NCBI RefSeq assembly: GCF_900104025.1
Contig: NZ_FNIQ01000003.1
Location: forward strand, 682,001 to 746,000
Direction of reading: 5' to 3'
Origin: Geodermatophilus sp. DSM 45219
GTDB lineage: Bacteria > Actinomycetota > Actinomycetes > Mycobacteriales > Geodermatophilaceae
DNA: 64,000 nt
Below, in pieces: positions 35,778-40,940 of the stretch (the stretch's first letter is position 1; the number at the start of each line of letters is the position of its first letter). The position numbers were made by a program, and so were the translations under genes. Below the pieces are notes generated by a model, which had not been told where the DNA came from, did no database searches, and saw only the letters and a list, made by a program, of their open reading frames with translations.

Positions 35778-38700
35778 GTGACCGACGACGACCTCCGGCG
35801 GTCGCTGTTCGCCGGAGGCGGCGAGGTCGGCCGCGCGATGGCAGCCGTGGACTGGGCGCGGACCCCGCTCGGCCCGCCGGAGCGGTGGCCCACGGCGCTG
35901 CGGCACACCGTCCGGGTCATGCTCACGTCGCGGTTCGCGATGTGGGCCGGGTGGGGCCCCGACCTCTTCTTCTTCTACAACGACGCCTACCGCCACGACA
36001 CGCTGCAGGACAAGCACCCCTGGGCGCTGGGCCGGCCCGCGTCCGAGGTGTGGGCCGAGATCTGGTCGGCCATCGCTCCCCGCGTGGAGGCGGTGCTGGG
36101 CAGCGGCCTCGCCACCTGGGACGAGGACCTGCTGCTCTTCCTGGAGCGCAGCGGCTACCCCGAGGAGACCTACCACACCTTCTCCTACAGCCCCCTGCCC
36201 GGCGACGACGGCGGCACCGGCGGCCTGTTCTGCGTGGTCACCGAGACCACCCAGCAGGTCCTCGGCGAGCGCCGGATGGGCACGCTGCGCGACCTCGCCG
36301 CGGCGCTGGGGGCCGCCCGCACCGAGGCGGGCGTGCTCGCCGCCACCGGCGAGCAGCTCGCCCGCAACCCCGCCGACCTGCCCTTCAGCGCGGTGTACCT
36401 GGTCGACGACGACGGGACCACGCGGCTGGGCTGCGCGGCGGGTTTCGAGCCGGGTGTCACGGTGCTCCCGCCGGTGCTGACCCCGGACGGACCCGGCGGC
36501 GACCTGCTGCAGCGGCTGCTGGCCGGCGAGGACGTCCTGGTGGACGACCTCGACCGCCGCCGCCCGGGCCTGCCGACCGGCGCCTGGGACCGGCCCCTGC
36601 AGCAGGCGGTGGCGCTGCCGATCGCCTCCGTGGCCCAGGACCGCGACCCGGTCGCAGGTTTCCTGGTGGTCGGGCTCAACCCGCACCGCCGGTACGACGA
36701 CGCCTACCGCGGCTTCCTCGGGCTGGTGGCCAACCAGGTCTCCTCCGCCCTCGCCAACGCCGGCAGCTACGAGGCCGAGCGGCGGCGGGCCGAGGCGCTC
36801 GCCGAGCTGGACCGGGCCAAGACCGACTTCTTCAGCAACGTCAGCCACGAGTTCCGCACCCCGCTGACGCTCATCGCCGGCCCGGTCGCCGAGCTGCGCG
36901 CCTCCCCGGCCGCCCAGTCCGACCCCCGGCTGGCCGAGGAGCTCGAGGTCGTCGAGCGCAACGCCCAGCGGCTGGCCCGCCTGGTCAACACCCTGCTCGA
37001 CTTCTCCCGCATCCAGGCCGGCCGGATCGACGCCCGCTTCGAGCCGGTCGACCTCGCCGCCACCACCGCGGAGCTGGCCAGCGTCTTCCGCTCGGCCGTC
37101 GTCCGCGCCGGGCTGGACTTCACCGTCGACTGCCCGCCGCTGGACGAACCGGTGCACATCGACCGGGACATGTGGGAGAAGGTCGTCCTGAACCTGCTCT
37201 CCAACGCGCTGAAGTTCACCTTCGACGGCGGCATCGCCGTCCGGCTGCGGCGGGACGGCCACGTCGTGCGGCTGACGGTCAGCGACACCGGCACCGGCAT
37301 CCCCGCCGACGAGCTGCCGCGGCTGTTCGAGCGCTTCCACCGGGTGGCCGACGCCCGCGGCCGCTCCGGCGAGGGCAGCGGCATCGGGCTGGCCATGGTC
37401 CGCGAGCTGGTCGCCCTGCACGGCGGCACCGTCGGCGCCGAGAGCACCCTCGGCGCCGGGACGGCGTTCACCGTCACCCTGCCGCTGGGCACCGCGCACC
37501 TGCCCGCCGACCGGCTGGCCGAGCCGGCCGCGGACGCGCCCGCGGTGTCCCCGGCCGCCGCCCCGTTCGTCACCGAGGCGCTGCGCTGGCTGCCCGACGG
37601 GCGACCCGCGGCCGGCGGCGCGGTCGCACCCGGCCCCGCGGCGGCGTCCGGCCGGGTGCTGGTGGCCGACGACAACGCCGACATGCGGGGCTACCTGGTG
37701 CGGCTGCTGTCCCCGCACTACGACGTCCGGGCGGCCGCCGACGGCCGGCAGGCGCTGGACGCGGTCCTGGCCGACCCGCCCGACCTGGTCGTCAGCGACG
37801 TGATGATGCCCGGGCTCGACGGCATGGGGCTGCTGGCCAGGCTGCGGGCCGACCCGCGCACCGCCCGCCTCCCGGTGGTGCTGCTGTCGGCCCGCGCCGG
37901 CGAGGAGGCCGCCGTCGAGGGGCTGGCCGCCGGCGCCGACGACTACCTGGTCAAGCCGTTCTCCGCGCAGGAGCTGCTGGCCCGCGTGGGCGCGCACCTG
38001 GAGCTCGGCCGGGCCCGGCGGGCCGCGGAGGAGCAGTTCACCGCCATGGCGGACCTCGCGCCGGCGCTCATCTGGGTGGCCGGCCCCGACGGGCAGCGGG
38101 TGTTCGTCAACCGCGGCTGGACGGAGTTCACCGGCCGCCCGGCCCGCGAGGAGGTCGGTCGCGGCTGGGAGCAGGGCCTGCACCCGGAGGACCGCGACCG
38201 CTACGCCGAGGTGGTCGCCGCGGCGACCGCGCGGCGCGAGGGCTGGGAGGTCGACGTCCGGCTGCGCCGCGCCGACGGCACGTACCACTGGCTGCTCGAG
38301 CGGGCGGTGCCGATCGGGACGGGGCCCGTCGGTCCCGGCGAGACCTCCGCCGGCTACGTCGGCAGCTGCACCGACATCAACGCCCGCACCCGCGAGACCG
38401 CCCGGCAGACGCTGCTGGCCGAGGTGGGCACCGCGCTGGACCGGGAGACCACCGTCGACGGCCAGCTCGGTGCGCTGGCGCGGCTGCTGGTCGAGCGGCG
38501 GCTGGCCGACCTGTGCAGCGTGCGCTTCCTGGGGGACGACGGCCGGCTCCGCTTCGCCGGGATCGCCGGCCTCGATGCCGCCGCGGAGGCCGCGATGGCC
38601 TCCCTCGACCCGCACAGCGGGCTGAGTCTCCAGGTCCTGGAGACCGGGGAGTCGGTGCTCGGCGAGCGGCTGTCCTGGCCGGCGCCGTCGGAGGAGGACG

Positions 38701-40940: not shown

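Follow-up and report, generated by a model that had tools for sequence, protein, structure and literature searches.

A hybrid histidine kinase and a PP2C-RsbW-STAS partner switch predicted on one chain in Geodermatophilus and related actinobacteria

A single gene of the soil actinobacterium Geodermatophilus sp. DSM 45219 encodes a protein in which a hybrid histidine kinase is fused to the complete domain set of a partner-switching module. Along the chain lie, in order, a PAS-like domain, a GAF domain, HisKA, HATPase, a receiver (REC), a PAS domain, two GAF domains, a PP2C phosphatase (SpoIIE), an RsbW-like HATPase and a STAS domain. An earlier note on the same 64,000-nucleotide stretch of DNA (hereafter the window) had proposed that a full partner switch and a His-Asp relay share one chain here, and this is borne out by Pfam and by conserved residues. 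Established at the level of sequence are the domains, the catalytic residues, their conservation in two families, the existence of relatives with a split-off STAS domain, and an rsbA neighbor; on this evidence, the fusion is real, is found across two families and is built of known modules. The features of the locus are listed below. Pfam calls were judged against gathering scores, which every Pfam model named in the list exceeds except PAS_4.

35778-40940, plus strand: hybrid kinase / PP2C / RsbW / STAS fusion gene, 1720 aa (single open frame and Pfam).
35802-36242, plus strand: N-terminal PAS-like sensor domain, aa about 9-155 (PAS_4, 21.4 bits, under the cut-off of 23.1).
36318-36752, plus strand: GAF domain, aa 181-325 (GAF_2, 39.7 bits).
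36816-37022, plus strand: HisKA, aa 347-415, with phospho-acceptor His357 at 36846-36848 (Pfam).
37161-37490, plus strand: HATPase_c of the histidine kinase, aa 462-571 (Pfam).
37656-37988, plus strand: receiver domain, aa 627-737, with Asp674 at 37797-37799 (Pfam Response_reg).
38034-38381, plus strand: second PAS domain, aa about 753-868 (Pfam PAS_3, 775-846).
38475-38873, plus strand: GAF domain, aa 900-1032 (Pfam GAF_3).
38970-39401, plus strand: GAF domain, aa 1065-1208 (Pfam GAF_2).
39393-39458, plus strand: conserved helical linker that leads to the phosphatase, aa 1206-1227 (helix predicted at 2-23 in the C-terminal model; invariant alignment residues).
39570-40127, plus strand: PP2C / SpoIIE phosphatase, aa 1265-1450 by Pfam (145.8 bits), with a GGDW motif just upstream.
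40152-40508, plus strand: RsbW-like HATPase_c_2, aa 1459-1577, with N-box Glu1496 and Asn1500 (Pfam, 107.7 bits).
40512-40613, plus strand: Pro/Ala-rich flexible tether between RsbW and STAS, aa 1579-1612 (low pLDDT, variable length).
40620-40868, plus strand: STAS domain, aa 1615-1697, with predicted phospho-Ser1658 at 40749-40751 in the motif ASAG (Pfam STAS_2).
40956-42044, plus strand: RsbA-family anti-sigma gene (MEDS plus HATPase_c_2), from its predicted start (NF041045, 225.3 bits, cut-off 210).
42077-42577, plus strand: MarR-family regulator after rsbA.

From a GTG at 35778 to a TGA ending at 40940, the reading frame runs uninterrupted through 1720 codons, and its GC content by codon position (0.81/0.55/0.97, computed on a longer frame from 35670) follows the pattern of a real gene. 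An antisense ORF of 1744 aa failed the same codon-position filter and was rejected. The genus-mate search covered the genome of the window and 20 relatives, 12 genus-mates among them, and a long match was present in all 12. Eleven of these matches extend to query residue 1696 or further; an assembly error or frameshift joining two genes was thus rejected, and the claim of one 1720-residue frame holds. In the twelfth genus-mate (G012), the match ends at residue 1455 at the end of a contig, and residues 1458-1705 start another contig. Five of the 11 long matches cross one stop; the ORF itself is open to at least query residue 1696 in all five.

The domain order agrees with the earlier reading, in which His357 and Asp674 had been placed exactly. 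The domain search that the earlier note had called for returned the kinase, REC, PAS_3, three GAF domains, PP2C, RsbW and STAS_2 over cut-off, and left the weak N-terminal PAS domain under it. The N-terminal region (aa 9-345) is ordered in an AlphaFold2 prediction (mean pLDDT 93.8), and in a structure comparison of the predicted model its GAF domain aligned with the GAF domain 4g3v (Z 15.5, rmsd 2.6, 150 aligned). Phytochrome-like sensing was dropped, the N-terminal model fitting a bacteriophytochrome PAS-GAF only at an rmsd of about 14, and no chromophore is claimed. An anti-phage role was rejected as well, with a single weak PADLOC match. The protein is read as soluble because its highest hydropathy windows (up to 1.92) sit inside the GAF domains; no clear transmembrane segment is present. 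A motif like FVTEALRWLP occurs in the linker between kinase and receiver (37491-37655) and was seen again in the Streptomyces and Actinomycetospora chains that were read.

In the C-terminal half, the three-domain fragment PP2C-RsbW-STAS was predicted with a pTM of 0.83. The RsbW-like domain of the predicted model matches a chain of the RsbV/RsbW complex 6m37 (Foldseek, rmsd 2.1 over 128 columns). The STAS call rests on STAS_2 (32.5 bits, cut-off 29.2), the other model, PF01740, scoring 19.5, under its cut-off of 22.6. Between these two domains, pLDDT falls below 50 at aa 1584-1597 of the C-terminal model; the tether is 28-51 residues long in 43 of the 44 STAS-bearing rows of the alignment described below and six residues long in one (L048), and its sequence is poorly conserved. 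As modeled, such a tether fits a STAS antagonist that would be mobile yet captive.

Residue conservation was read from an alignment of 54 chains, with near-duplicates and fragments left out. His357 of HisKA is kept in all 51 aligned chains having the kinase, and Asp674, Ser704 and Lys726 of the receiver are kept in all 51 having the receiver; the first acidic residue of the receiver is Glu in three chains (L058, L049 and L089). The metal-binding aspartates of the PP2C motifs occur in 54/54 aligned rows, the N-box Glu and Asn of RsbW in 52 of 54 rows (absent in L048 and L049), and the STAS Ser, Ser1658, in all 44 rows that reach the site. By sequence, the first half of the chain carries the marks of a hybrid histidine kinase (HisKA with its His, HATPase N and G boxes, and a receiver with Asp, acidic pair and Lys), and the phosphatase, a SpoIIE domain with metal-binding Asp motifs, those of the SpoIIE/RsbU type of PP2C. 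The next domain would belong to the RsbW/SpoIIAB type, with a HATPase_c_2 fold, N-box Glu and Asn, and G1 and G2 boxes, and the last is a putative STAS anti-anti-sigma domain, with a STAS fold over cut-off (STAS_2) and a predicted phospho-acceptor Ser.

The residue preceding the STAS Ser is Ala in 37 of the 44 rows, Pro in six and Gly in one. In STAS motifs of the DSSG type, an Asp stands before the phospho-Ser. Judged by eye, 11 of the 19 STAS_2 matches of the own genome have this Asp; its absence was considered as a mark of the fusion and dropped, since eight of the 19, the fusion included, are without it.

The earlier note regarded the architecture as unusual, which is only partly right: it is common to Geodermatophilaceae and to many Pseudonocardiaceae loci, and Streptomyces, other relatives and a Rhodococcus plasmid carry a version that has no STAS fused to it. 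Seventy-seven loci, taken from the best 80 of 258 confirmed stretches, were fetched from named genomes, and all eleven domains lie on one ORF in 36 of these 77 loci: 15 from Geodermatophilaceae, 10 from Actinomycetospora and 11 from Pseudonocardia, where two (L046 and L071) look identical. The genera with a full chain are Geodermatophilus, Blastococcus, Actinomycetospora and Pseudonocardia. Among 24 other genomes forming an even sample of the class, no chain reached into STAS at E 1e-60, the contigs of two (G032 and G041), where a fused STAS may exist, ending within the chain; kinase, receiver and PP2C were on one ORF in five of the 24, these two among them.

The halves of the chain also occur apart. 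Three Pseudonocardia chains (L065, L067 and L072) have several PAS/GAF domains, PP2C, RsbW and STAS and are without HisKA-HATPase-REC (Pfam on L065); the output half is thus not dependent on the kinase. The kinase-receiver unit also sits on chains with other outputs (L059, L061 and L084). A second fusion of the own genome (L002:1474-4146; contig C6 near 267854-270487) joins a PAS-like N-terminus and a hybrid kinase-receiver directly to an RsbW-like domain, and Pfam gave no PP2C or STAS match on it. This arrangement recurs in 11 of 12 genus-mate regions (L143-L145, L147-L154), while the remaining region, in G006, holds a different kinase; the genus-mate search found no match of this type in G005.

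In several relatives, the STAS domain is encoded by a gene of its own. At all seven Streptomyces loci, RsbW is the last domain on the chain, and the start of a separate STAS gene meets or overlaps the stop codon of the chain (Pfam on one). A Streptomyces fungicidicus plasmid and a conjugative Rhodococcus ruber plasmid are annotated with a 'SpoIIE family protein phosphatase' followed by a 'STAS domain-containing protein', one base being shared between the two. For six further chains from four genomes, a STAS match begins at the chain end (predicted starts), and the Kutzneria chain also has an adjoining separate STAS gene. Such a gene meets or overlaps the chain end in 16 of the 20 STAS-less chains examined, seven of them from Streptomyces, and no adjoining STAS was found for the other four (L049, L089, L134 and L139). 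Because a separate STAS gene adjoins 16 of these 20 chains, STAS is likely to be the cognate substrate of the PP2C-RsbW chain. The split form of the R. ruber plasmid spans L128:5956-10466, and its presence on a plasmid typed as conjugative implies that the module may move between actinobacteria.

The split form of Streptomyces and Rhodococcus shares with the fusion the N-terminal kinase and receiver and the placement of PP2C and RsbW on one chain, whereas its STAS lies in an adjoining gene, its sensor domains are fewer and its PP2C and RsbW are less identical. Mean identity of six Streptomyces chains to the query is 72 percent for the kinase, 70 percent for REC, 45 percent for PP2C and 35 percent for RsbW, and across the family no parts are better conserved than kinase and receiver. 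At E 1e-100, matches to the Streptomyces chain occur in four of the 21 genomes of one family (that of G035, itself counted). Two separate joinings of the kinase to PP2C-RsbW are possible, as the uneven identities (from 72 percent for the kinase to 35 percent for RsbW) and a quick tree suggest. On the quick tree, the label needs five changes, but a single origin of the joining was not rejected (AU p 0.225). Of the two trees, the first comprised 49 rows and the second, from which L003 was omitted for its long branch, 33; near-duplicates had been removed beforehand.

A split form may also be present in Streptomyces coelicolor. There, SCO7327 is counted among three hybrid kinases whose cascade is unclear and which lack a membrane helix (PMC9739842); elsewhere it is named OsaD and tied to osmotic sensing (PMC9739823). 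SCO7325, two locus numbers away, is reported to be an RsbV-type STAS protein acting on SigB (PMC8346170, PMC11472566). From this description and the locus numbers, SCO7327 may be a split form, which suggests that this form offers a possible outlet for hybrid kinases of its kind.

Downstream of the fusion gene, rsbA starts after about 15 bases. An RsbA-family gene lies directly downstream of the chain in the window, at all 15 Geodermatophilaceae loci and in the MAG L042. With the RsbA of the window as query (E 1e-3), no downstream match was found at the tested Actinomycetospora, Pseudonocardia, Kutzneria and Streptomyces loci. Two Pseudonocardia loci (L046 and L047) have an RsbA-like match (36-38 percent identity) upstream of the chain and in the same orientation; in L052 and L075 such a match is farther away, on the opposite strand. 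A MarR match occurs at most 2.7 kb downstream of the chain at 15/15 Geodermatophilaceae loci. What is new, as far as the compared loci indicate, is the split-STAS relatives in Streptomyces and others and the rsbA gene that follows the chain in Geodermatophilaceae.

Upstream, positions 32462-35770 of the window hold ureide-catabolism genes on the opposite strand (uricase, HIUase and a match to OHCU decarboxylase), and a DUF6986 gene that ends seven bases before the fusion gene; DUF6986 is found upstream at 12 of the 15 Geodermatophilaceae loci. A consensus scan of 35500-42800 returned no promoters or terminators, and shuffles also give about none. No match to a SigB/F/G-type sigma factor was found within the window. 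The genome has only one such match over cut-off, on a different contig (C11:676051); about 1.5 kb separate it from a PP2C-RsbW-STAS paralogue, and a further STAS_2 match is close by (C11:671585-678222; L003, L116). The genome has 18 STAS_2 matches over cut-off, that of the fusion included.

The reading that we favor, and consider fairly probable, is that the protein is a soluble one-chain version of the RsbK-RsbY, RsfS-RsfR and HptB-HsbR-HsbA circuits with Rv1364c-like C-terminal domains. The N-terminal PAS-GAF would sense a cytosolic cue and set the HisKA-HATPase, and the kinase would autophosphorylate His357 and pass the phosphate to Asp674 of the same chain or of a dimer partner. The receiver, second PAS and two GAF domains would act through the helical linker on PP2C. 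The phosphatase would dephosphorylate the tethered STAS domain at Ser1658, and the RsbW-like domain would rephosphorylate it. The phosphorylation state of STAS would decide whether it occupies its own RsbW, perhaps also the neighboring RsbA, and this occupancy would release or retain a sigma factor or other client. We infer each of the phosphotransfers, the direction in which the receiver would control PP2C, the action of STAS in cis or in trans and the final client.

The published circuits differ in the sign of control. RsfS is reported to phosphorylate the receiver of the PP2C protein RsfR, with lower phosphatase activity on RsfB as the outcome (PMC10950880), while phosphorylation of RsbY, which is fed by RsbK, is modeled to raise activity (PMC4574943), and receiver phosphorylation of HsbR is reported or modeled to raise its PP2C activity (PMC6482189). 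A helical linker together with dimerization has been proposed as a general means of PP2C control (PMC12143880), and a conserved predicted helix precedes PP2C in the fusion chain. An intramolecular switch is plausible; the separate adjoining STAS of relatives and the flexible RsbW-STAS tether both lend it indirect support. That the whole stress pathway (sensing, His-Asp relay, PP2C, Ser kinase and antagonist) runs within one molecule or dimer can be held only tentatively, and we lean somewhat against it.

The conserved RsbA-type anti-sigma gene next to the chain implies that STAS may act in trans. If it did so mainly, the fusion would charge and discharge its tethered STAS, the true partner of which would be the adjacent RsbA, and its own RsbW would serve as STAS kinase only. 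We regard this as unlikely: the same-strand RsbA-family gene directly downstream at the 15 Geodermatophilaceae loci and in L042, and the RsbA-like match upstream in L046 and L047, would agree with it, as would published partner switches reported to divide kinase and client binding among several RsbW and STAS proteins (PMC10950880, PMC8346170), but RsbA is not a universal partner of the chain, being unmatched downstream at the tested loci of the four other genera at E 1e-3.

It is also conceivable, if quite improbable, that the receiver serves the histidine kinase alone, as a brake or phosphate sink, that PAS-GAF-GAF sets PP2C, and that the two chemistries sit on one chain but are not causally connected. 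The receiver of RsbK is reported as an inhibitory element on its own kinase (PMC4574943), and the chains that keep the remaining domains without the kinase and receiver, like the kinase-receiver units with other outputs, are in keeping with such independence. However, in HsbR and RsfR the receiver precedes PP2C and is reported to control it (PMC6482189, PMC10950880), and it is the receiver and kinase that are most conserved across the family. We see only a slim chance that the output is not a sigma factor, with STAS and RsbW controlling another client, for example a cyclase, or propagating to other STAS proteins. HsbA is reported to act on a diguanylate cyclase and FlgM (PMC6482189), the 18 STAS_2 matches of the genome provide many possible partners, and the window itself holds no SigB/F/G match; against this stand the rsbA neighbor conserved in Geodermatophilaceae and the reported action on SigB of SCO7325, encoded two locus numbers from a hybrid kinase (PMC8346170).

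The one-chain circuit that we favor can be set beside several known systems. Rv1364c of Mycobacterium tuberculosis (PAS-PP2C-RsbW-STAS) also has PP2C, RsbW-like and STAS domains on one chain in the same order, and is reported both to phosphorylate its own STAS domain at Ser600 and to dephosphorylate it (PMC10950880). Its PP2C-RsbW structure (3ke6) is the best PDB match by sequence, over aa 1230-1579, and also the first by fold, but the C-terminal model fits it at an rmsd of about 7.8 and does not reproduce the interdomain arrangement. Rv1364c has a single PAS domain as its only sensor, without histidine kinase or receiver, whereas the fusion has PAS-GAF-HisKA-HATPase-REC-PAS-GAF-GAF.

HsbR of Pseudomonas aeruginosa, described as a receiver-PP2C-RsbW protein fed by hybrid kinases via HptB and with HsbA as its STAS partner (PMC6482189), resembles the fusion, as does CrsR-CrsA of Shewanella, in having receiver, PP2C and RsbW-like domains on one chain together with a STAS antagonist. 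In contrast, the HsbR system distributes hybrid kinases, HptB and HsbA over separate proteins, while the fusion has both kinase and STAS on the chain and, compared with HsbR and CrsR, PAS-GAF-GAF between REC and PP2C. The fusion would work alike but is not filed as a member of this group. RsbK-RsbY of Bacillus cereus and RsfS-RsfR of Mycobacterium smegmatis are reported to follow the same route, from histidine kinase to REC-PP2C, STAS, RsbW and sigma factor, with each step a separate protein rather than part of one chain. The earlier note saw two signaling chemistries joined, and on one chain here they are; as a circuit this is not new, as published accounts of RsfS-RsfR (PMC10950880), RsbK-RsbY (PMC4574943) and HptB-HsbR-HsbA (PMC6482189), and Rv1364c, indicate. 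A partial literature search found no description of the exact full architecture, which is not proof of its absence.

Partner switches are usually read as networks of exchangeable proteins, and this family joins kinase, phosphatase, serine kinase and likely substrate covalently. Fused chains and relatives with a detached substrate form a natural experiment on how tethering affects specificity and cross-talk in STAS-rich genomes; if the one-molecule pathway is true, the split form would be a matched natural control for the effect of antagonist tethering on switch behavior. The parts are familiar and their single-chain assembly seems little studied; by analogy with the systems above, the protein is best read as known signaling steps placed on one chain.
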